Origin: a virus
DNA: 64,000 bases
IMG/VR virus record: IMGVR_UViG_3300017917_002237
Span: 1-64,000 of that record
Reading direction: 5' to 3' (one strand)
Shown here: piece by piece, positions 826-18,954 of the stretch
Position numbering within the stretch: position 1 is the first letter of the stretch
How the letters are laid out: each line of letters opens with the position of its first letter
Notes under the pieces: model-generated
Told to the model about the DNA's origin: nothing
Seen by the model: only the letters and a program-made list of their open reading frames with translations
Database searches by the model: none
Translations under genes and position numbers: made by a program

Positions 826-900
826 TGGTGCCGGATGTCGGATTTGAACTGACGACCTACCGCTTACAAGGCGGTTGCTCTACCCCTGAGCTAATCCGGC
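826..900 (-). tRNA. tRNA-Thr(TGT)
   Basis: A complete cloverleaf on the minus strand: acceptor GCCGGAT/ATCCGGC, D arm with AGCTCAG and GGTAGAGC, anticodon loop CTTGTAA with anticodon TGT, T loop TTCAAAT, and encoded CCA (826-828). A sigma70-type promoter lies 20 bases upstream. Confidence 0.95.
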
Positions 901-920
901 TTTTTGTTTAACAACTACGC

Positions 921-949
921 ATTGTATGATATTTATAGTTTGTTGTCAA
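921..949 (-). promoter_or_regulatory. sigma70-type promoter for tRNA-Thr
   Basis: TTGACA, 17 bases, TACAAT on the minus strand, ending about 20 bases before tRNA-Thr. It overlaps the stop codon of the desaturase gene upstream. A TATAAATA string also occurs inside the spacer. Confidence 0.75.
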
Positions 950-1707
950 TTATTTTTTCCGATTAGTTTCACCAACCACGCCACGGGGTCCAACTCCCAC
1001 CAACGAACCTGCGTATTAACTTGATCTGCACGAGCATGATGGTTGTTGTGCCAGGCGTCACCTAATATAAAAGGCCAAAGGTATATGTTGTTGGTGCTAC
1101 GGTCACGTGTGTCAAAATTTCTATAACCATGTTTGTGTGCAAAATAATTAAAAGCAATCTGTGATACACTGACCATGAACACTGGCACTGCCCATGCATA
1201 AAACAACAAATTATAATTTATAACTAACAGTGCTGTCAAGAACAGGGCAATCAAAAGCATATAATATTTGTCGATTTTGATGTGAGCTGGTGTCAATAGT
1301 TCTTTTACTATAAAATAATTAATCTTCTTTGTGTCGTCATAGACCGGTTTGAATCCAACAAACTTAAAGGTGTCATAGTGAGGACTATGTGGATCCTTTT
1401 CTGTATCGCTAGTTGCATGATGTATTCTATGTATGTAGACCCAGCCTAATGGACTACCGCGACCTGATAGTACAGCAAACACTGTGAATATCCACTTTAA
1501 TATAGGGTTCAGTTTAAAACTTTTGTGGCTATAGTACCTGTGTAGCATCATGCTAACGCCCAGGATACTGTAGCAATAAAAACAGACGACGGACAACAAA
1601 GCATATTGCCAGGTCGTGTCGACCACAAACATGCCCACTAGTATTAATACCAGAGAAAAGATTTGTAATATGAACAAGGATTTTGGTGTTGCGGATAGGT
1701 ATTTCAT
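946..1707 (-). CDS. membrane fatty-acid desaturase (acyl-CoA/ACP delta-9 type)
   Basis: The protein has about 253 residues with hydrophobic segments and the three histidine boxes of class III membrane di-iron desaturases: HRYYSH near residue 56, HRIHH near 93 and HNNHH near 229, followed by WWELDP. The family introduces a double bond into acyl chains bound to CoA, ACP or lipid, using O2 and an electron carrier. No electron carrier is visible nearby. The start is placed at the ATG at 1707: there is no Shine-Dalgarno sequence, but ACTAAATA lies exactly five bases upstream. It is last in a three-gene operon with another desaturase and an oxygenase. The substrate is unknown. Confidence 0.9.
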   Translation of the reverse strand: MKYLSATPKSLFILQIFSLVLILVGMFVVDTTWQYALLSVVCFYCYSILGVSMMLHRYYSHKSFKLNPILKWIFTVFAVLSGRGSPLGWVYIHRIHHATSDTEKDPHSPHYDTFKFVGFKPVYDDTKKINYFIVKELLTPAHIKIDKYYMLLIALFLTALLVINYNLLFYAWAVPVFMVSVSQIAFNYFAHKHGYRNFDTRDRSTNNIYLWPFILGDAWHNNHHARADQVNTQVRWWELDPVAWLVKLIGKNN

Positions 1708-1712
1708 ACAAA

Positions 1713-1720
1713 TATTTAGT
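1713..1720 (-). promoter_or_regulatory. late-type promoter box, leaderless spacing
   Basis: ACTAAATA, one of a set of TNTAAATA-like boxes, lies five bases before the desaturase ATG at 1707. The T4 late consensus is TATAAATA with transcription starting 6-7 bases downstream, which here would be at the ATG. Confidence 0.4.
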
Positions 1721-1737
1721 GATAACAAATATAGAGT

Positions 1738-2313
1738 TTAAAACAAACCAGAAACATCCATGCATTCTTCTACGGTCCTGGCTTCTGTGGCATGAATCTT
1801 CCAACGTACTGTAAACATGATTCTATGATGGTCAGTGTCGTTGGTCACGCCATGAAATACTGAATTATTGGTAATATAGGGCCTAGTTATCTCTAGTTGA
1901 GATACTAGTTTAAGTTTACTGCGATCTTTTGGTTGTCTTGCTGCCAGATAGCCTTCACCTGTTTTGTATTCCATGTTGTCCTCGTCTGCTTCATAGAACG
2001 AATGTAATGTGTTCTCCGTGCCCAGCACAGGGATATTCAAGGCAAATGGCACTGTTGGCTCAGTGCCATCTATATGTATGGCTAGACTACTGCGTGGGGG
2101 TGTTACATAGTATCTATACAGTCTAACAGGAAGTTTTAGCCTGGGTGCTAGCCATGACATGAAAAGCGGGCAATGTTCTACCATATATGGCAGTACATAG
2201 GTAAACGCATGCGGTTTGGTATGCTGTTTATAATCATGTGCTATACCCTGGAGAAGTTCTTTTTGTATAACTTCAAAATTAGGTATTGAGAAAGGTATGA
2301 ATAGCTCTTTCAT
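1738..2313 (-). CDS. putative 2-oxoglutarate/Fe(II) oxygenase
   Basis: The 191-residue protein has a cupin-type facial triad: H80-x-D82 (AIHIDG) and H154 (FHGV), with R164 in HHRIMFTVRW as the likely 2OG carboxylate ligand. Such enzymes hydroxylate or desaturate small molecules, lipids or peptides. Its ATG overlaps the TGA of the upstream desaturase (ATGA), and another desaturase follows, so an acyl or lipid substrate is plausible but not shown. It is one of six similar triad proteins within 10 kb. Confidence 0.65.
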   Translation of the reverse strand: MKELFIPFSIPNFEVIQKELLQGIAHDYKQHTKPHAFTYVLPYMVEHCPLFMSWLAPRLKLPVRLYRYYVTPPRSSLAIHIDGTEPTVPFALNIPVLGTENTLHSFYEADEDNMEYKTGEGYLAARQPKDRSKLKLVSQLEITRPYITNNSVFHGVTNDTDHHRIMFTVRWKIHATEARTVEECMDVSGLF

Positions 2314-3092
2314 CTACGAATTAATTCAATGACTCTGGCAGCAGGGTCGAATTCCCACCACTTGCCGCTAGTACCAGAACCAAAGTCATAGTTGCCGGGG
2401 CGAGCATGATGGTTGTTGTGCCAGCCTTCACCAAATGTAATTAGAGCATTGATCCAGAGATTGCGGCTATTGTCTGTAGTTTCGAAATTTCTATAACCCC
2501 ACATGTGATTCATATAGTTACTGGTTGTGCTGATCCATACACTGATCACAGCAGGAATTATAACCACGTGCATCATAAGCACACTTCCACCAATAGCGTA
2601 CCATATTACGGTCCAGGTACTAATCAGTGCAAAATACCAGGTGTGAGTGAATACATGAAATTTATCAAATATCAAGTGCCTGATCTTCCACTTGTCCGGT
2701 GTATAAGGATACGATGCTAACAACATACTAGCACCGCGTGTAACAGGGCTATGTGGGTCGCCTATTTTGTCACTATACTTGTGATGATCTCGATGCAGGC
2801 CGACCCAACCTATACTAGATCCTGTAAATGCCAGCATGCCACATACTGTACAAAGTCTTTCCCAGAATTTGCTGGTCTTGAAACTCTTATGTGTGAGCAG
2901 TCTGTGATAACCAATACTAATACCCAAACAACCTATGATGACATAGACCGCAAGGCTTAGTAGCCACAATGACAGATCCTGCGGGAACACAAAGATGAAG
3001 GCAGCGACCAAGATGGTTGCTGCCAACTGTATATAAGGTAGAAATTCTGTATTGCTAGCGAAGATGTTGTTGATTATTCTTTTGTAGGCCAT
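2310..3092 (-). CDS. membrane fatty-acid desaturase (second copy)
   Basis: About 260 residues. Histidine boxes are HRLLTH, HRDHH and HNNHH, followed by KWWEFDPAARVIELI. Two pairs of hydrophobic segments flank the boxes. The start is placed at the ATG of MAYKRI: a second ATG two codons upstream is possible, but the late-type box AATAAATA lies five bases before this one and there is no Shine-Dalgarno sequence. It shares more box sequence with the third desaturase (13110-13925) than with the first. It is the first gene of the desaturase-oxygenase-desaturase operon. Confidence 0.9.
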   Translation of the reverse strand: MAYKRIINNIFASNTEFLPYIQLAATILVAAFIFVFPQDLSLWLLSLAVYVIIGCLGISIGYHRLLTHKSFKTSKFWERLCTVCGMLAFTGSSIGWVGLHRDHHKYSDKIGDPHSPVTRGASMLLASYPYTPDKWKIRHLIFDKFHVFTHTWYFALISTWTVIWYAIGGSVLMMHVVIIPAVISVWISTTSNYMNHMWGYRNFETTDNSRNLWINALITFGEGWHNNHHARPGNYDFGSGTSGKWWEFDPAARVIELIRR

Positions 3093-3097
3093 GCACA

Positions 3098-3105
3098 TAT
3101 TTATT
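3098..3105 (-). promoter_or_regulatory. late-type promoter box, leaderless spacing
   Basis: AATAAATA on the minus strand lies five bases before the ATG at 3092. It fits the same arrangement as the boxes before 1707, 8247 and 46655. Confidence 0.45.
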
Positions 3106-4324: not shown

Positions 4325-4687
4325 TCAATCTGCCTGTCTGGTTAGATAATATTTTCTAAGATGTTGTGCTCCAAATGATTCTATCATGCTTTTTTCTACC
4401 ACCGCAGGATTAAAATCTTTACAACTAAAAACATCTAGATAGATTTGGCCCAGACCATCAACGAAATGTGCAACTATACTGCTGGTGACGATTATCTGTA
4501 CTACAGTAAAACCCGCCTTGTCAGGGAATTCTGCCGCTGTATATTCTATACGTGGCTCCCCAATCGGTTCCATATCAATATCTTTTACTAATTTTCTAAT
4601 CCAACGATCTACATTGTCTCTGTCAGACATTTTTGGTGTGTCACACCCGCCACAATCAATAATAAAATGATAACCCCAATAATTCAT
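4325..4687 (-). CDS. speD: S-adenosylmethionine decarboxylase, small bacterial type
   Basis: 120 residues, the size of class Ib AdoMet decarboxylase. The N-terminus (GYHFIIDCGGCD) matches the family's G-x-H-hydrophobic-D start. S69, H74 and C89 keep the spacing of the self-cleaving Ser, the processing His and the catalytic Cys (63/68/83 in the family). The usual Glu before the Ser is Thr here, so processing should be checked. The product, decarboxylated AdoMet, donates aminopropyl groups for spermidine. No aminopropyltransferase is visible in this window. It is last in a coupled operon (ATGA overlap with the GNAT-like gene). Confidence 0.8.
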   Translation of the reverse strand: MNYWGYHFIIDCGGCDTPKMSDRDNVDRWIRKLVKDIDMEPIGEPRIEYTAAEFPDKAGFTVVQIIVTSSIVAHFVDGLGQIYLDVFSCKDFNPAVVEKSMIESFGAQHLRKYYLTRQAD

Positions 4688-5181
4688 TTATTTTTCCTAA
4701 ACGCTGTTTTTAAAATACTCACAAATACTTCGCTATCTACAGGTGACCACTGGTTGCTATATAAAGAATTGTAATGTCTTGTAAATTGCGTTTTCTTCCA
4801 TGCTGGCACCTTATAATCTAAGAAAGTCATATATCTATCAGGTAGATAATTTTGTAAAAAATCTATTTCATAAGTTCTTGCTGCCCAGCAGAATCTTTTT
4901 AAACCAAAAGCCTCAAAACGTTCAATGGTATCATTTAGCAACGTGGGCAGCTCTTCTGCTTCATCACAATAATGCCCAATATAATGCCACTCGGGATATT
5001 CACCTGAATAGAAAGTACAGGATATAGATGTAAGATCATTTTCCTTGTAACTGCTAAAATTTCCAAAAGCATGCCATGACTTGAGCCCACTAAGATAGGT
5101 TTCTTTGAAGTCTTCAAGTCTAGAGGGTGGTAACAATTGTGCTACCTGGGCCAGATGGTCTATTCTTAATTTTTTAAGCAT
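4684..5181 (-). CDS. GNAT-like protein, paralogue of 13922-14545
   Basis: 165 residues with an YLSGL-S-HAFG motif near residue 28 and alternating strands resembling an acyl-CoA/ACP N-acyltransferase fold; I see no definitive acetyl-CoA loop. It clearly matches the protein at 13922-14545 (YLSGLNSFHAFG). Both genes lie directly downstream of a PP-loop ATPase and overlap its end, so the pair probably acts together. It starts eight bases before the PP-loop stop codon and ends at ATGA with speD. Confidence 0.6.
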   Translation of the reverse strand: MLKKLRIDHLAQVAQLLPPSRLEDFKETYLSGLKSWHAFGNFSSYKENDLTSISCTFYSGEYPEWHYIGHYCDEAEELPTLLNDTIERFEAFGLKRFCWAARTYEIDFLQNYLPDRYMTFLDYKVPAWKKTQFTRHYNSLYSNQWSPVDSEVFVSILKTAFRKNK

Positions 5182-6097
5182 TGTTTCCTCGTAATTTACT
5201 AATTACCTCATTGTATGTTAAATAGGGCTTGGTATCTCCTAGATTATCTGGCATTAACTTTGCCAGCTCTACTCTAGAATCAACCAGCATGCCGCGTAAA
5301 TTTTCAAACCCCGTTGTTTTTTCTTTATCACGTAAATCTGGCACCAACCTTTGTAAAATTTTATTTTTAACAGGGGTTATGGACCAATAGGGTGTTTTGT
5401 CATTGATTAGTTCAACTATATCTTGATCCTCAAGATAATAAAGCATCAGTTCAGGAGTATAACTGAACCATTCGATAATAAAAGGTATCTGATACTTCAT
5501 CGAAAACCTTACGTGTGCTGCTTCAAGAGTCTCTATGTTCCTAAGCACCCATTCTCCCTCAAAAGAATTATTAACATATTTCTCAATCAACAATTCACCA
5601 CCAAGTATAGCGGCGGTATTTAATTTTTTAGCCACCTGAAAAAATGCTAGAAATGGCAGCAATTCGCACTGTATTTTAACTGCTAAATTTGCCGCTGCAC
5701 CACTAAGATAAAAATCCTTCACATCAAAATCAACAATCTCATAGGGCAAGGATAATTCCTCTGCAACTGACACGGCCTCCTTGACTTCCCCTATATTATA
5801 ACCACCAGTAAAGTTTATAATTATACACTTGGGACGCAGGCCTTGTCTAGCAAAACTTCTTGCCATGATTTCACTATCAGAACCCCCTGATATAAACAAT
5901 GCCATATCATTCTTAAATTCATCATATTGTAATCGCGCCACCCTCAACAACTCTGACTGGTAATTATTTTTTGCATAGTATTCAGGGTCTATGGTGCCCA
6001 CATCTGTAGTATACTGCTGGTACTTGTTGGTTCTTACACCAAAGGGCACCCCATCAATAAAATGTTTAAGGTGATTATTGTGGGTAAAATTGTACAT
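5174..6097 (-). CDS. PP-loop ATPase, asparagine-synthetase-like domain only
   Basis: 307 residues with SGGSDS at 70-75, the ATP pyrophosphatase loop, and GGELL later. The family adenylates a carboxylate or carbonyl and lets an amine attack it, forming an amide. There is no N-terminal glutaminase domain, so ammonia or an amine must come from elsewhere. The N-terminus (NNHLKHFIDG) matches its paralogue at 14514-15473. Its ATG overlaps the TctC stop (TAATG). The substrate is unknown; location in a coupled operon with a GNAT-like protein and AdoMet decarboxylase suggests amide formation in one pathway. Confidence 0.75.
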   Translation of the reverse strand: MYNFTHNNHLKHFIDGVPFGVRTNKYQQYTTDVGTIDPEYYAKNNYQSELLRVARLQYDEFKNDMALFISGGSDSEIMARSFARQGLRPKCIIINFTGGYNIGEVKEAVSVAEELSLPYEIVDFDVKDFYLSGAAANLAVKIQCELLPFLAFFQVAKKLNTAAILGGELLIEKYVNNSFEGEWVLRNIETLEAAHVRFSMKYQIPFIIEWFSYTPELMLYYLEDQDIVELINDKTPYWSITPVKNKILQRLVPDLRDKEKTTGFENLRGMLVDSRVELAKLMPDNLGDTKPYLTYNEVISKLRGNNA

Positions 6098-6957
6098 TAC
6101 TTATAGGATTTTTGCCAAATTTTGACTTGATCATCAAATTGCTTTTTTGTGCCTTCTAAAGTAGAAGCCACTGGTCTAATACCCTTAGACTTAAAGAAGC
6201 TTGCATTAGCAGGGTCCTTGTTGAACTTCATACCAAGATCATTAAGCATCTTAACAAATTCAGGATCTGCTTTTTTGTTAGTCGCTAATAAGAACTGATT
6301 AACAACGTTTTGAGTTACTCCTAGACAGTCCTTGGTTGTTGGTAGCCCTTCAAAAACCGTGGAACCCGTGTTTGCCAACATGGTGATCTCTGGATTATCG
6401 TGCATTGTGGCAAAGAATATCATGTCAATCCGGCCGGCGATCAAATCAATTGTCGCTTGTGATGCACCCTTATAAGGTATATCAATGTATTTCTTGGGCT
6501 CATTATCAAACAGAATTTTTGCAGGTGCATAAGTGATACTATCTTTACCATTGGTACCAATGAATATTGGGCCGGGGGCCGCCTTCATTGATTGGCAAGT
6601 ATACTTCTTAGAAGCAGGTGTTCCAATCATCAATGGAGATTCTGCTAGAACAGATGTTATGGTGAACGCATCTTCTGCAAAAGTATTTTGTACTATATTT
6701 GCATAGTGGCTGCTAGAGTTAACCATAGCAACATTACCAGATGATTCCAATAGCCGTCTAGATGCCACCACGGAGCCTGCACCGGTTATGTTTTCTACTA
6801 TAACATTCTTGCCTGTTGTCTTTTCTACATGTATGGCAAACGTTCTTGCGACCGTATCTACTGCACCACCTGGTGCAAATGGTACGATTATTTTAAAATC
6901 CGCTAGGGCCATAGTTGGCGCTAGAAGTATTGCTACTATCGCTAGTAATTTTTTCAT
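6097..6957 (-). CDS. TctC/Bug-family periplasmic solute receptor
   Basis: A clear Sec signal peptide (KKLLAIVAILLAPTMALA) is followed by IVPFAPGGAVDTVAR, the ligand loop typical of the tripartite tricarboxylate transporter receptor family, and IPYKGASQA later. Mature length (about 265) is normal. The family is greatly expanded in Betaproteobacteria. The start at 6957 is supported by GGAG and by ATGA overlap with the upstream PP-loop gene. No TctA/TctB membrane partners are encoded here, so it would either use host partners or sense or sequester a metabolite. Confidence 0.9.
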   Translation of the reverse strand: MKKLLAIVAILLAPTMALADFKIIVPFAPGGAVDTVARTFAIHVEKTTGKNVIVENITGAGSVVASRRLLESSGNVAMVNSSSHYANIVQNTFAEDAFTITSVLAESPLMIGTPASKKYTCQSMKAAPGPIFIGTNGKDSITYAPAKILFDNEPKKYIDIPYKGASQATIDLIAGRIDMIFFATMHDNPEITMLANTGSTVFEGLPTTKDCLGVTQNVVNQFLLATNKKADPEFVKMLNDLGMKFNKDPANASFFKSKGIRPVASTLEGTKKQFDDQVKIWQKSYK

Positions 6958-8183
6958 TTTGAACTCCATTTCCAATCTTTAATTATGTATGGTTGACTAT
7001 AAAATGATATACTGTTTATTGGGAAATTTTCGATGTTATATCTAAAATATCCCTCGTCCTCTCTGAGGAGTTTCTTCCACTTTTTAACCCATCTATTTCT
7101 ACTAGGAGTAGTTCCCCTAAGAAACCACAGATCCTTTGTAGAAAATATAACGCTACCTGTTACCTTGTCATTGCCAAAGTCGTCAGGATTTTCATCCGGA
7201 TAGATGATCTTTTCTACTTCTTTCTTTTTAACCCACTTGCCGTTGGGGGAACCATAACCTATAGGATGCTCTACAAAGGGCCCGGTGGTGGTAATAAACC
7301 CAATATCTACAATTCTATCATCATCAAGTGATCTAATATCATTGATCATGTCCACCAATAGATGGCATTGTTTGATGGTGATTTCTGGCATGTCTGGGGT
7401 GACAAAAAATGGTTCATCATAGAAATTTTTAAGTACGCCGCCCAAGACCTTCCTGTTAACATATGGACGTACAGAATATTCAGACACACTGTCAGTAAAT
7501 TTAAAACACCATTTACCGTCTATTTCAAATAGATTGGGTTTGTCGTATCCCCACATGTAGCATATTGTCTTGCCTTCTTTGCTTAATTCAACATGATGTT
7601 CAATTTTTAATTTAAAGAAGTGCGAGCGTAATGCCAGATACCATGATGGCAATGGACCATTGTAAAAATACTGAAATTTTTCATAGTAATTGTCATCCAA
7701 AAACTGATCTAACTGTAATTGTCCAAAGTCTACGTAGGTAACTCGAGTTCCCTTGTCTTCAAGATTTAATGACTGTACATATGGTATAGCCATCTTCACT
7801 ACTTCTTGATTTATTTTGGCAGTCTCTGGTAGATACTTTTTGTTCCCTGCTATGACAACCTCATCCAATTTAATATTATTCTTAACAAAGGTGTTTAAAA
7901 TAACATGGCTATCTATTCCGCCACTGTAAAGTAAAACCACATAGTCAAATTTATCTCGTAGCTGCTGGGCACGTCGTTTATAAAGCTCCTGTAAAGATTC
8001 TTCTGGTTCCTTTTGCCAATCTAACTCCTCCATCTTGTTGTCGTTGAAGATGAATTTGATATCGCTAGCTGGCAGGTTCTTATTCTGAGCTATTTTCCAG
8101 GCTTCATATTTACTGAAAGTTTTGACACCATCAATCTCAAAGTAGCCGTATTTTGTAAATTGTTCTTCTGAATTAAAGTACAC
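6954..8183 (-). CDS. PP-loop ATPase, asparagine-synthetase-like, longer type
   Basis: 409 residues. The PP loop SGGIDS lies at 87-92 after a helical N-terminal region, and there is no glutaminase Cys at the N-terminus. It starts with GTG, preceded by AGGAG at ideal spacing. An exact TATAAATA late-type box lies about 20 bases upstream, so it heads the operon PP-loop, TctC, PP-loop, GNAT-like, speD, in which every junction overlaps. It is less similar to the two other island PP-loop proteins than they are to each other. Amide or thioamide chemistry is expected; substrate unknown. Confidence 0.75.
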   Translation of the reverse strand: MYFNSEEQFTKYGYFEIDGVKTFSKYEAWKIAQNKNLPASDIKFIFNDNKMEELDWQKEPEESLQELYKRRAQQLRDKFDYVVLLYSGGIDSHVILNTFVKNNIKLDEVVIAGNKKYLPETAKINQEVVKMAIPYVQSLNLEDKGTRVTYVDFGQLQLDQFLDDNYYEKFQYFYNGPLPSWYLALRSHFFKLKIEHHVELSKEGKTICYMWGYDKPNLFEIDGKWCFKFTDSVSEYSVRPYVNRKVLGGVLKNFYDEPFFVTPDMPEITIKQCHLLVDMINDIRSLDDDRIVDIGFITTTGPFVEHPIGYGSPNGKWVKKKEVEKIIYPDENPDDFGNDKVTGSVIFSTKDLWFLRGTTPSRNRWVKKWKKLLREDEGYFRYNIENFPINSISFYSQPYIIKDWKWSSK

Positions 8184-13109: not shown

Positions 13110-13925
13110 TTATTTTGATGCTGTAGGTTTGCCTATGAAAGGTATGAATATTACGCAGGGGTCAAATTCCCACCACTTACCGCTTACGCCGCGGCCGAAG
13201 TCAAACGCACTGGCCTTATAGTGATGGTTATTATGCCAAGCCTGGCCCCAGGTCAGATAACCCAGTATAGGATTATTTTGACTATTGTCTTTAGTATCAA
13301 AATTTCTATAGCCTATAACTGCCTTGGTGTGCCCAAACACGTTGACTAGGTTATCCTGGAATAAGCCTATCATCGTAACCAACCAAAAACCAGTAAGAGC
13401 CAGGCGCCAGTCAAATACTGCAACTGCCAGTGGTGTTAGCCATAGAATTCTTAGATAATGTTTATGGAAAAAACTATGATTAGGTTTTCTCAACATATCC
13501 AATGAATACTTAATGCTTATAGGCATTTCACGTTCTGTAATAGTTCTATACCAGCCCACAAATGCATGCCACTTGCCATAGACCACAGGACTATGAATAT
13601 CCCTGGGTTGGTCTGCATATGGGTGATGATATCCTCTATGCAAAGATGTCCAGAAAATGCTGCTACCCTGGCCTGCAAATACAGCGAAAAATAATATTAC
13701 GGATTCTTTCCAGGTAGGAAGTTTATGTGTTCTATGACTGAAGATTCTATGATAACCCACAGCAATGCCTAGCCCACATACCAAGACCCACATTACAAAA
13801 GTGGCCCACAAATAGTAAGCGGGAATAATGCCCATAGCAAGTAACGCTATGGTAAATGAACCTATTATCATTGCTGGTACGAATTGAAACCAGAATGATT
13901 TTGACATGCCTGTTAAAAATGTCAT
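13110..13925 (-). CDS. membrane fatty-acid desaturase (third copy)
   Basis: 271 residues with HRIFSH, HRGYHH and HNNHH boxes, four hydrophobic stretches and KWWEFDP near the end. It is coupled to the GNAT-like gene by ATGA overlap and so belongs to the operon GNAT-ACP, PP-loop, GNAT-like, desaturase. An ACP in the same operon makes an acyl-ACP substrate an attractive guess. Confidence 0.9.
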   Translation of the reverse strand: MTFLTGMSKSFWFQFVPAMIIGSFTIALLAMGIIPAYYLWATFVMWVLVCGLGIAVGYHRIFSHRTHKLPTWKESVILFFAVFAGQGSSIFWTSLHRGYHHPYADQPRDIHSPVVYGKWHAFVGWYRTITEREMPISIKYSLDMLRKPNHSFFHKHYLRILWLTPLAVAVFDWRLALTGFWLVTMIGLFQDNLVNVFGHTKAVIGYRNFDTKDNSQNNPILGYLTWGQAWHNNHHYKASAFDFGRGVSGKWWEFDPCVIFIPFIGKPTASK

Positions 13926-14545
13926 ATGTGTCCTCCTATGGGCAGCTCTGTCCTATATTCTTGTTTTAAATAATTACAACGGACAACACTATCCTCAGGC
14001 ACTAACCAACGCTTGAATAATAACTCCCAATGATTGCCATAGAAACATTTTGCCTTGGCGGGTACGACGAACTCATCAAAATAACCATATCGTTCGTCAT
14101 TTTCCTTGCTCCAATGAAATCTACGTAGAAGTCTAGAATGTTTTTTATGCACCAGAGTATAGAATTTAAGCCTTCCATTGCTTTCATTATATTTAATCAC
14201 TTCGTCCAGAACAGCTCGTAATTTCTCATTATCTCCCAGACTTCTATATAAGGTATAATACCAAGCAGGTTCTTCATTGCTCTCATAGAAACTAATGGCG
14301 GCCTGGACTTCGTCATTTTCCACCCAGCCAAAAGCATGAAAACTATTTAGGCCGCTTAGATAGTTAGAACAAAATACATGATATAGTCTGGTATTAAATT
14401 GCTCTGTTGGTGATGCTGGGATATTTTTAAAAGTTCCTAAAGTAAACTCGGGGGTATCTGCTATGACATTGCCCATGTACTTTTCATTATTGAACAACCC
14501 CCTGACGGCGGCTTTATGACTGCTGTTCAACTTCACTACTGACAT
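13922..14545 (-). CDS. GNAT-like protein, paralogue of 4684-5181
   Basis: 207 residues from the ATG at 14545, chosen because GGAGAAG lies just before it; a longer start at 14557 is possible. NYLSGLNSFHAFG near residue 75 and the following strand-helix pattern match the protein at 4684-5181. It overlaps the PP-loop gene upstream by about 30 bases and the desaturase downstream by ATGA. Function is probably acyl or aminoacyl transfer, but the fold assignment is tentative. Confidence 0.6.
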   Translation of the reverse strand: MSVVKLNSSHKAAVRGLFNNEKYMGNVIADTPEFTLGTFKNIPASPTEQFNTRLYHVFCSNYLSGLNSFHAFGWVENDEVQAAISFYESNEEPAWYYTLYRSLGDNEKLRAVLDEVIKYNESNGRLKFYTLVHKKHSRLLRRFHWSKENDERYGYFDEFVVPAKAKCFYGNHWELLFKRWLVPEDSVVRCNYLKQEYRTELPIGGHI

Positions 14546-15473
14546 AATCTTCTCCATGTAAACTTTTGTATAAATCTCTTATGTAAATGCCATCCAGACT
14601 GGATTCTAGCCTTTTTACATAACATTGTGAAAGGGCAGCATATGTTTCGCCATTAAATCCTAATATTTTTTCAAACCCATGTGTCTTTATTTTCTTAACA
14701 ATGTCAGGCATGTAGGTATACAACACTGAATTCTTAGTACTGACGCTGGTGAGTTTATAATTATTTTCAGTTAGCATACTCTTGATCACAGGATGTTCTA
14801 GATAATAACCCATCATCTCAGGTGTATAACTGAACCATTCATTTACTAGCGGTATGCCATACTTATGGCTAAAACGCATGGCGCTGGCGTCCTCGTTTTC
14901 TCTGAAGCAATAGGACCACTCGCTAAAGTTTGGTTTTGTTATTCGCTTCATCAGCATCTCCCCACCCATGACCGCAGGCAAACATAATTTTGCTACGTGG
15001 TAGTATACAGAAAGATAAGCCATCTGACTGCACTGTAATTCAGTGGCAAGCTCTGCGGCTAAGCCGCTGCGATAGAAATTAATAATGTCAAAGGGTATGA
15101 TCTCCAGTTTCAAATCCATGCTATTGGCTATTTGTATAGCATAAACCATGTCTCCATGATTATAGTCATTGTTGAATTTGATAAAAACTACCCTGGGCGT
15201 CACGCCGATATGTTTGAAGGCTCTTAGTACTATTTCACTATCAGTACCACCACTAAACATCACAACAAAGTCCTTGCCGTATTCTCTGCGAATTATATCG
15301 GCAGTTCTATATTGTTCTTGGACCCAATTGCTAGTAGCATAATGATCTTTGTCAATGGCTCCTACAGATACTTTAAATTTATCCGTGACCTGTTCCCTGT
15401 AGCCAAAGTCTCTATAACCGGTTACATCACTACCAATTTTATATTTTAAATGGTTATTGTATGTGAAATTCAT
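14514..15473 (-). CDS. PP-loop ATPase, asparagine-synthetase-like domain only
   Basis: 319 residues, SGGTDS at 74-79, GGEMLMKR later; same length, N-terminus (NNHLKYKIG) and order of motifs as 5174-6097. No glutaminase domain. The ATG overlaps the stop of the GNAT-ACP gene (ATGA). Proximity to an acyl carrier protein suggests that it forms an amide with a carrier-bound or free acyl group; not proven. Confidence 0.75.
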   Translation of the reverse strand: MNFTYNNHLKYKIGSDVTGYRDFGYREQVTDKFKVSVGAIDKDHYATSNWVQEQYRTADIIRREYGKDFVVMFSGGTDSEIVLRAFKHIGVTPRVVFIKFNNDYNHGDMVYAIQIANSMDLKLEIIPFDIINFYRSGLAAELATELQCSQMAYLSVYYHVAKLCLPAVMGGEMLMKRITKPNFSEWSYCFRENEDASAMRFSHKYGIPLVNEWFSYTPEMMGYYLEHPVIKSMLTENNYKLTSVSTKNSVLYTYMPDIVKKIKTHGFEKILGFNGETYAALSQCYVKRLESSLDGIYIRDLYKSLHGEDYVSSEVEQQS

Positions 15474-16237
15474 TTCATTAAGGACATTAGGTCTCTAACA
15501 AACACCACTCTGGCATCTGCAGACAATTCTATGCCTTGATCGTCTTCGTAGAACATTTGAAGCTCAACAATGTCCAGACTATCTAAACCAAGGTCTAAAA
15601 GTCTCGCATCAGGTGTAATTGGTACTTTGGGCTCTTTATTGAATTGTGATTTGATGGCATTGTTGATATACTCAAGTTTTTCTTGATCTGTCATGATTTT
15701 CCTCGTTAATTGAACCACATACTGTGTAGTATTATATATAGTCATTTTATTCAATGGTTTGAACTGCCTGTATATGTCAGGCCAATCATTGAACAAACTG
15801 GTACGTTTATTTTGGCTTGCTCTTACAAACCAATCGTAGATCATTTTATTATGTTCGTTTACTGTTATCCATAATTTTCTATAATTAGCGGTTTCTAATA
15901 TAATTTTTGGCAATATGTATTTGGCCATGGGATATTGGCCTCGGTATTCAGGAGAAACATAGGCTCTGGTCAATCCCAATGCTACATTTGAATCTTCTTC
16001 ATATTCGTTCCACCCAGCAGAACATACGATTTTCCCCTCGTCCTCTACGATGTAATATTTCCCATAAAATTTTCTGTATCTACCAGATCTTAAAACGTAA
16101 AAAAGATTACCGTGCTCATCACGGTAATCTGGGTGGTAATTTCTTATTATATTTGGATCAGAAACTTTCATGAGTTCTGTCCCCAACAACTTTAATAAGT
16201 CTAGGTTACTGTTGTCGTGTAATTCATGAATTATCAT
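15470..16237 (-). CDS. GNAT acyltransferase fused to acyl carrier protein
   Basis: 255 residues. Residues 1-180 resemble a GNAT acyltransferase (AYVSPEYRGQYPMAKYILP corresponds to the acetyl-CoA-binding loop and helix). Residues 182-255 are a normal-size ACP with LGLDSLDIVELQM, whose Ser carries phosphopantetheine. An in-frame ATG at 15694, preceded by GAGG at good spacing, could give a free 74-residue ACP as well as the fusion. It heads the operon with PP-loop, GNAT-like and desaturase genes. No phosphopantetheinyl transferase is seen here, so a host enzyme would be needed. Confidence 0.8.
   Translation of the reverse strand: MIIHELHDNSNLDLLKLLGTELMKVSDPNIIRNYHPDYRDEHGNLFYVLRSGRYRKFYGKYYIVEDEGKIVCSAGWNEYEEDSNVALGLTRAYVSPEYRGQYPMAKYILPKIILETANYRKLWITVNEHNKMIYDWFVRASQNKRTSLFNDWPDIYRQFKPLNKMTIYNTTQYVVQLTRKIMTDQEKLEYINNAIKSQFNKEPKVPITPDARLLDLGLDSLDIVELQMFYEDDQGIELSADARVVFVRDLMSLMK
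15695..15705 (-). promoter_or_regulatory. internal ribosome binding site for the ACP domain
   Basis: CGAGGAAAATC directly precedes an in-frame ATG at 15694, at the exact domain boundary between the GNAT and ACP parts. It would allow separate translation of a free ACP. Confidence 0.5.
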
Positions 16238-16254
16238 TATACATGTATTTAATA

Positions 16255-16863
16255 CTATGTGTCTATTTGACTAAACTGTTCATGGATCTTCCTGGATACA
16301 ACCTTGTGCAAACCAGGATTGACGACAAGTGCTCGAGGCAGTAGCTCGTGTCTAACAAAATTACGCATATACTTTAGGTCCATGTTGGTCTTGTCATCAA
16401 TACAGGGCACAGCATTTTTCTTGCACCAGGCAACAAGATCCGCCTTGACTGTCAACAATAATGGCCTAAACACACGATTACGCTGGTATGGAATAAGTTT
16501 GGCAGTACCATGCATCATGCTCCAGAGATAAGTTTCTACCGAGTCATCAAGATGATGTGCGGTAAGGATATTTTCTTCTAGTGAATCAAGCCAAGCATAC
16601 CTTTGCTCACGCCAGTGCTCTTCAGGGCTAACATCAGGATCTCGTTGTTTACTGATACGACCTTGAATTAATTTCCATCCGCGAAACTCGCAGTACTCTG
16701 ATAAAAATTCTTCAGCTTCTGCGCTAGTCTCTGTACCGTGATGGAAGAAGGCGCAACGCACACTTCTAGTACGACTGACAAAATCCGCCAATGCCATACT
16801 ATCTACACCACCACTAAGAGCAATAACAGGATTCTGTGGCAGACTGCCCAGGATCTTGATCAC
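16255..16863 (-). CDS. tilS: tRNA(Ile)-lysidine synthase-like PP-loop protein
   Basis: 202 residues covering the TilS catalytic domain: SGGVDS at 17-22, AHHLDDSVETYL, and PCIDDKTNMDLKYMRNFVR, which match the ATP loop, the AHHxDD motif and the D-x-(T/S)N...RN signature. C-terminal tRNA-binding domains of long TilS proteins are absent, as in short forms. It would convert C34 of a CAU tRNA to lysidine, changing Met reading to Ile (AUA). A CAU tRNA is encoded at 4173-4249. The start is GTG, overlapping the upstream stop (GTGA). Confidence 0.8.
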   Translation of the reverse strand: MIKILGSLPQNPVIALSGGVDSMALADFVSRTRSVRCAFFHHGTETSAEAEEFLSEYCEFRGWKLIQGRISKQRDPDVSPEEHWREQRYAWLDSLEENILTAHHLDDSVETYLWSMMHGTAKLIPYQRNRVFRPLLLTVKADLVAWCKKNAVPCIDDKTNMDLKYMRNFVRHELLPRALVVNPGLHKVVSRKIHEQFSQIDT

Positions 16864-17817: not shown

Positions 17818-18954
17818 TTAATTTCGTTCAAACCAAATTTTTGCCATGCTGTGCAATTCAGGCATAATAGCGTTGGTGCTGAATGCAATAAAGAATTTGT
17901 CATTCTTGGTATTCCAAATAATTGTTTGGCCACCATATCCCACAGCCGCGTAGGTTCCAGGGATAGCAGTGTTGTCCACCCAGGTCAGATAACCATAGCC
18001 CTGATAGGAAGGAACGAATCGACGGTCAGTACTGATCTGCCTTGTGGTTGCTTGGCGCACAAAATCACCATAACAACCTGTTTGCCGACGACTTTCCTGC
18101 ACAAATACTGCAAAGCGGGCCCAGTCGTTCATAGTCATGCGACTATCACCCACTGTCCATGCATAACCAAATTTGTCTCTGCCGTGATACCTGCGGTCTC
18201 CTGTCTGTACTTTGCTAAAGAAATGCTCAGTCTGCCATTCACGAAAATCCTTGCCGCCCTTACCATAGGCAGCAGAAATCATCATGCCCACAAGAATGGG
18301 ATCTTGTGATTTGTAGGAAAATGTGCTACCAGTCTTTTCCCAACCCTGTTGTTTACCTAGACGGCCCTTAAGCAATTCCATCCAGCTGGTACGTGCATTA
18401 CTCAGATCCTGACGTTCTTCCTTGGTCAAGCTCTGACTGTCATCAAAGGCACGTGTAGTACCAGACGACATGGTAAGATTATCTCGCAAGGTTGTTTCGC
18501 CAATGCCAGTTCCTGCAAGTTCAGGCAACACATCTTTGGCTCTTGTATTCAGTGAAATCTTACCATCACAGATGGCCACGCCTGCGCTCATAGCAGTGAC
18601 AGTCTTGTCCACACTAGCACTCATAAATGTGTTGAATTCTGAAGCACCATCCTTATAGCCAACCTTGACAATCTTGTCGCCATCACCCAGGAGGTATGCT
18701 ACTGAGCTGATACTTTCAAACTGGCGTTGAATGTCTTCGATGCCACGTGCCTCGGCCTGAGTTGGTTCCCTAGTACCTAGCACTCGTCCTTGCCTAGTGG
18801 CAGGTACAAAATATCTGTGGTATTCGCCCTCTGACATCAAAACGTTTTTAGGCATGAGGGGTCTGCCATTGCTCTGCGGCAGATGTTGTGAATATGCCGA
18901 TAATGCCGTACTAGTAAGTGCAAGCACCAAAAGAGTTTTAGAAAATTTCTTCAT
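17818..18954 (-). CDS. secreted serine hydrolase, class C beta-lactamase-like
   Basis: 378 residues with a signal peptide (FSKTLLVLALTSTALSAYS). The family active-site Ser-x-x-Lys is present as SASVDK; YKSQD is a candidate for the Tyr-x-Asn element, with Gln/Ser variation; GYGGQT replaces the third motif. Such proteins (esterases, amidases, D-aminopeptidases) act in the periplasm. It probably acts on the cell wall, surface polymer or an amide compound. The ribosome site is weak. Confidence 0.75.
   Translation of the reverse strand: MKKFSKTLLVLALTSTALSAYSQHLPQSNGRPLMPKNVLMSEGEYHRYFVPATRQGRVLGTREPTQAEARGIEDIQRQFESISSVAYLLGDGDKIVKVGYKDGASEFNTFMSASVDKTVTAMSAGVAICDGKISLNTRAKDVLPELAGTGIGETTLRDNLTMSSGTTRAFDDSQSLTKEERQDLSNARTSWMELLKGRLGKQQGWEKTGSTFSYKSQDPILVGMMISAAYGKGGKDFREWQTEHFFSKVQTGDRRYHGRDKFGYAWTVGDSRMTMNDWARFAVFVQESRRQTGCYGDFVRQATTRQISTDRRFVPSYQGYGYLTWVDNTAIPGTYAAVGYGGQTIIWNTKNDKFFIAFSTNAIMPELHSMAKIWFERN

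Follow-up and report, generated by a model that had tools for sequence, protein, structure and literature searches.

Acyl carrier proteins (ACPs) encoded by phages have been published from isolates as well as from prophages (PMC5463345, PMC10152775, PMC8224337), and the PHROGs collection includes an ACP family, PHROG 5934. In the JamABC terminal-alkyne cassette, an acyl-ACP synthetase, a membrane desaturase and an ACP are combined, and the desaturase acts on the ACP-bound chain (PMC4356899). FeeM is a GNAT-like acyltransferase that works with an ACP (PMC4897644), and in the loading module of the curacin PKS, GNAT and ACP occur in one chain (PMC3252866). That a GNAT–ACP chain would be something unknown anywhere is ruled out by this cellular module.

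We have analysed a stretch of viral DNA of 64,000 nt, here called the window (positions 1 to 64,000 of IMG/VR record IMGVR_UViG_3300017917_002237; 68,172 bases), in which a GNAT-like sequence and an ACP share one open reading frame. A previous, sequence-only reading of the window had described this gene as a GNAT–ACP fusion with an internal ribosome site at the domain boundary, giving no strand for 15470-16237: stop codons abound on the plus strand across that interval, and the open reading frame is on the minus strand. The features of the locus are listed in Table 1.

Table 1. Features of the fused gene and its cassette in the window, and of the ACP locus of phage contig L087 (own coordinates).
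Feature	Position	Strand	Basis or remark
Fused GNAT-ACP open reading frame	15470-16237 (16237→15470)	minus	255 codons, single open frame
GNAT-fold acyltransferase domain, residues 1-181	15695..16237	minus	AlphaFold2 model and structural match; separate gene of ~180 aa in relatives
ACP, residues 182-255	15470..15694	minus	PF00550 above cut-off and ACP profile
Ser220, predicted phosphopantetheine attachment site	15578..15580	minus	invariant in 13/13 aligned phage ACPs
ATG182, ACP start codon (gene probably separate ancestrally)	15692..15694	minus	aligns with relatives' ACP starts
AAAA run beside the junction	15697..15700	minus	
GAGG, Shine-Dalgarno-like site of the ACP start	15701..15704	minus	like sites before relatives' separate ACP genes
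PP-loop ATP pyrophosphatase-like protein (SGGTDS)	14514..15473	minus	4-nt ATGA overlap with the ACP stop
Second GNAT-fold protein (GNAT2), 211 aa	13922..14557	minus	model, Z 13.9 to 3g8w
Membrane fatty-acid desaturase	13110..13925	minus	PF00487 1.8e-11; His boxes in sequence
ACP of L087	2986-3222		
Desaturase of L087	2186-2989		

That residues 182-255 constitute a complete ACP was borne out. The Pfam model PF00550 matches residues 199-239 with 22.2 bits (cut-off, 20.8), and the NCBIfam ACP models span residues 182-251, albeit all below their equivalog cut-offs; the housekeeping AcpP equivalog, TIGR00517, scores 31.5 bits versus the 70.45 required. A profile of the ACP relatives, compared with solved ACPs, supports the assignment. 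Judged by these matches, the C-terminal part of the fusion is an ACP, yet not the housekeeping AcpP equivalog. The LGLDSLD sequence, including the DSL motif, is present, and its serine (residue 220) is the predicted attachment site, as had been proposed.

When GNAT and ACP rows were aligned together, the ACPs were misplaced onto the N-terminus of the GNAT, and GNAT-only rows were modelled instead. In the AlphaFold2 model, residues 1-180 clearly fold as a GNAT (Z 14.0 to 3gya; 138 residues, 2.3 Å), with pLDDT mostly >90 up to residue 180, and GNATs fill the list of its structural matches. The ACP part of the model is of low confidence, its input alignment consisting of GNAT rows. The cut-offs of the Pfam acetyltransferase families were not reached (PF13508, 19.8 bits vs. 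27; PF00583, 15.1 vs. 20.7): residues 1-180 are sequence-divergent and, according to the model, belong to the GNAT superfamily by fold only. The modelled tether between the two domains is ~5 residues, the last GNAT strand ending at residue 178 and the first ACP helix beginning at 184.

Direct searching with the fusion gene yielded no close relative, nor did a single-protein search of viral contigs, while the ACP gave only two weak matches amongst named phages, both in unannotated faecal phage records. The GNAT alignment proved too variable to search the collection with. By contrast, an alignment of the gene's neighbour, the PP-loop protein, with its paralogue elsewhere in the window (36% identity) retrieved 32 IMG/VR loci when used as a query, and the ACP alignment retrieved 59, some of them on contigs shared with the PP-loop loci. 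As expected of a phage auxiliary metabolic gene, the record is viral and so are the relatives, IMG/VR contigs of up to 524 kb. In view of these 59 loci, the PHROGs family and the published isolates and prophages, the statement that ACPs are rare in phages was too strong.

The relatives place the fused gene within a cassette. The gene order GNAT-(ACP)-PP-loop-GNAT2-desaturase is collinear in most loci, on ~20 uncultured phage contigs. From its sequence, the PP-loop protein appears to be ATP pyrophosphatase-like, with a weak likeness to QueC, asparagine synthase, MnmA and NAD synthase. GNAT2 matches no Pfam family; its model rules out an unknown fold (Table 1). Desaturases of 48-71% identity adjoin the other genes in most of the GNAT-bearing relatives, and further down, the window encodes a radical SAM protein of the B12 type and proteins resembling 2OG oxygenases. 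In roughly ten cassettes that include the GNAT, the ACP is missing, and a search of the rest of those records, which may be incomplete and of which one is 524 kb long, did not turn one up. The cassette therefore does not depend on an ACP. Neither the PP-loop nor the GNAT protein gave a match to the cassette in 50,697 named phage records, and no description of it was found in open-access papers. It is this undescribed, conserved cassette of fatty-acid type, rather than the fusion, that is the real novelty here.

The window harbours additional genes of related kinds, all on the minus strand. A second PP-loop/GNAT2 pair (4684-6097) is 36% and 28-39% identical to the pair in the cassette, and no GNAT-ACP or desaturase directly adjoins it. 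A TctC-type substrate-binding protein (6097-6975; PF03401 1.9e-14) is encoded beside a 409-aa PP-loop gene; such a TctC-type/PP-loop pair occurs again after the cassette in L017 (9554-10453). At 946-3098, a probable 2OG-oxygenase gene has a fatty-acid desaturase gene on either side, bringing the desaturases in the record to three. Immediately beyond the fused gene, at 16255-16863, a 202-aa protein matches the tRNA lysidine synthetase TilS in its N-terminal domain only (TIGR02432, above cut-off), and a secreted-looking serine hydrolase of 378 aa (17818-18954) belongs to the beta-lactamase fold family (PF00144 8e-16) with scores far below every named beta-lactamase cut-off.

At none of 19 distinct phage GNAT–ACP junctions in the relatives are the two genes in one frame. 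Five of these junctions overlap by 4 nt (ATGA) and four by 23 nt; at the remainder, the genes overlap slightly by other lengths or lie up to 95 nt apart. If any one base of the 13 nt preceding ATG182 is deleted, the GNAT of the window ends at the TGA of an ATGA, and if one base is inserted in the same 13 nt, it ends 23 nt into the ACP gene. Both single-base layouts occur in relatives, although the TGA within ATGA follows from the second ACP codon beginning with A and is not independent evidence. The fusion is an oddity of a single record, one indel away from the usual layout. Most simply, it would be a derived one-base frameshift, either genuine or due to an assembly error.

There is indeed an in-frame ATG at the domain boundary with a GAGG before it, at a spacer of 6 nt (GAGGAAAATC directly followed by the ATG; window 15704-15692). 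The duplex energy of this site with the 16S tail, a simple anti-Shine-Dalgarno measure, is −5.9 kcal/mol, a value equalled or bettered by 8% of the 365 ATGs on the same strand in the region, which rules out the Shine-Dalgarno site alone as proof of an internal start. In the same gene, the in-frame ATG23 (−5.5) and ATG104 (−5.9) score alike with poorer spacing. By itself, the signal before ATG182 proves little; it appears credible because ATG182 is aligned with the start codons of the relatives' separate ACP genes, several of which have a similar Shine-Dalgarno sequence, as in L010 (aaaggaaaacaa before the ATG) and L014 (aaggaaataaa before the ATG). The proposal of an internal ribosome site in a fused gene did not stand up against the relatives, where 19 of 19 junctions are those of separate genes. 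Since the relatives have separate GNAT and ACP genes, the site most likely descends from the start of an ACP gene that formerly stood alone.

We therefore favour, with a probability of about 0.6, a derived join of neighbouring GNAT and stand-alone ACP genes inside a conserved cassette. A one-base indel near the junction would have joined the frames and removed the GNAT stop; ATG182 and its GAGG would be inherited, the free ACP made from ATG182 would be the working form, and the ACP would have an acyl-carrier role. In the PP-loop tree, the window falls in a supported group of 12 rows (100/100), eight with a separate ACP, three without ACP and one fused. The junction of the immediate ancestor is unobserved because the nearest neighbour in that tree, L006, has no ACP.

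It is possible, at somewhat below even odds, that the virus itself has two overlapping genes and that an assembly or sequencing error has added a base to the record, or dropped one, at the junction. The fusion occurs in this record and in 0 of 19 others, a one-base change beside the AAAA run restores either of the relatives' layouts, and an independent copy of the junction was not found: no near-identical contig covers the junction or the inside of the ACP (the two regions searched; near-identical records may lie outside the search). However, a run of four bases is short for a typical indel error, and the other cassette genes of the record are full length, without signs of frameshifts. Unlikely, in our view, is a genuine and useful fusion, in which a tethered GNAT–ACP and a free ACP initiated at ATG182 are both made, as the sequence-only reading proposed. 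The frame is open, the GAGG is well spaced and both domains look intact, but the fusion is conserved in no relative, the start signal is accounted for by a separate ACP gene and the tether is short. Both products could be made from the one gene; nothing shows selection for two products, nor is the idea specially supported. We are equally doubtful of this reading when the tethered and the internally initiated ACP are set within an undescribed phage acyl-chemistry pathway with a counterpart in Bdellovibrionales.

Under the favoured join of two genes, the ACP most likely carries an acyl group for the cassette enzymes, mainly as a free protein. Host AcpS would add phosphopantetheine to Ser220, and the ACP would hold an acyl group for the desaturase to modify. 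Transfer of this group, or its ATP-driven joining to an amine or carboxylate, would fall to the GNATs and the PP-loop ATPase and would give a small product, acylated or amidated. JamABC offers a precedent for desaturation of an ACP-bound chain, FeeM for a GNAT-like enzyme paired with an ACP, and the curacin loading module for both domains in one chain. Where the cassette has no ACP of its own, it could draw on the ACP of the host or on CoA. The domains, the cassette, the separate genes of the relatives and the conserved serine are established; the substrate, the order of the enzymes and the product are guesses.

The ACP might instead feed or divert fatty-acid synthesis of the host and adjoin the cassette by chance or for co-expression. 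Its absence from ~10 cassettes would fit, as would the annotation of published phage ACPs as fatty-acid-synthesis proteins and the presence of fabG-acpP-fabF in some prophages. We nonetheless consider such a role quite improbable: the ACP lies between GNAT and PP-loop gene in ~19 divergent loci, often with stop-start overlaps, its score falls far short of the cut-off for housekeeping ACPs, and desaturase and ACP recur together in other neighbourhoods, both phage and cellular.

One such neighbourhood is that of phage contigs L087 and L092, which differs from the cassette and where genes for a radical SAM protein, desaturase and ACP occur together. L087 also has its own AcpS-type phosphopantetheinyl transferase (PF01648 1.6e-14, above cut-off; 830-1129, minus strand), and its position beside the radical SAM protein, desaturase and ACP supports reading such phage ACPs as activated carriers. 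The record of the window and the 18 other records searched yielded no AcpS. In addition, a scan of 84,980 species genomes identified PP-loop relatives of 25-29% identity in four Bdellovibrionales MAG contigs. In the 413-kb contig LNEB01000015.1 (L034), the segment 3137-10571 codes for a PP-loop protein and two desaturases, a homologue of GNAT2 (E 2.5e-15), a free ACP that matches the phage ACP profile with E 6.3e-8, a radical SAM protein of the B12 type and a 2OG-oxygenase-like protein; there was no match to the first GNAT in this cluster.

The fusion is probably no more than a one-base accident; tracing it nevertheless exposed a widespread, collinear phage cassette, apparently for carrier-bound acyl chemistry. 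This raises the question of which small molecule or lipid such phages make, a question that is directly testable because the cassette occurs in phages and in Bdellovibrionales, and one phage has its own ACP-activating enzyme.

The cluster in L034 is likely the cellular counterpart of the phage cassette: PP-loop protein, GNAT2 homologue, desaturases, B12-type radical SAM protein, 2OG-oxygenase-like gene and ACP are common to both, whereas L034 is cellular and its ACP is free and adjoins the GNAT2 homologue. The phage ACPs known so far (PHROG 5934, ORF32 of Erythrobacter phage vB_EliS-R6L, that of Vibrio phage R16F and those in the fabG-acpP-fabF genes of Rhodobacteraceae prophages) are likewise small, phage-encoded type II ACPs; they occur alone or in a fab-like operon, whereas the ACP described here is in frame with a GNAT and part of a PP-loop/GNAT/desaturase cassette. 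FeeM resembles the phage genes in pairing a GNAT-like acyltransferase with an ACP; it is not among the 50 structural matches listed for the GNAT model, which excludes nothing. The curacin loading module resembles the fused gene in having GNAT beside ACP in one polypeptide, but it is part of a modular PKS, whereas no PKS genes surround the phage gene. JamABC, likened by gene content, shares with the phage cassette a membrane desaturase, a dedicated ACP and an ATP-using enzyme; it differs in having an acyl-ACP synthetase where the phage has the PP-loop protein, and the phage cassette has two GNATs.
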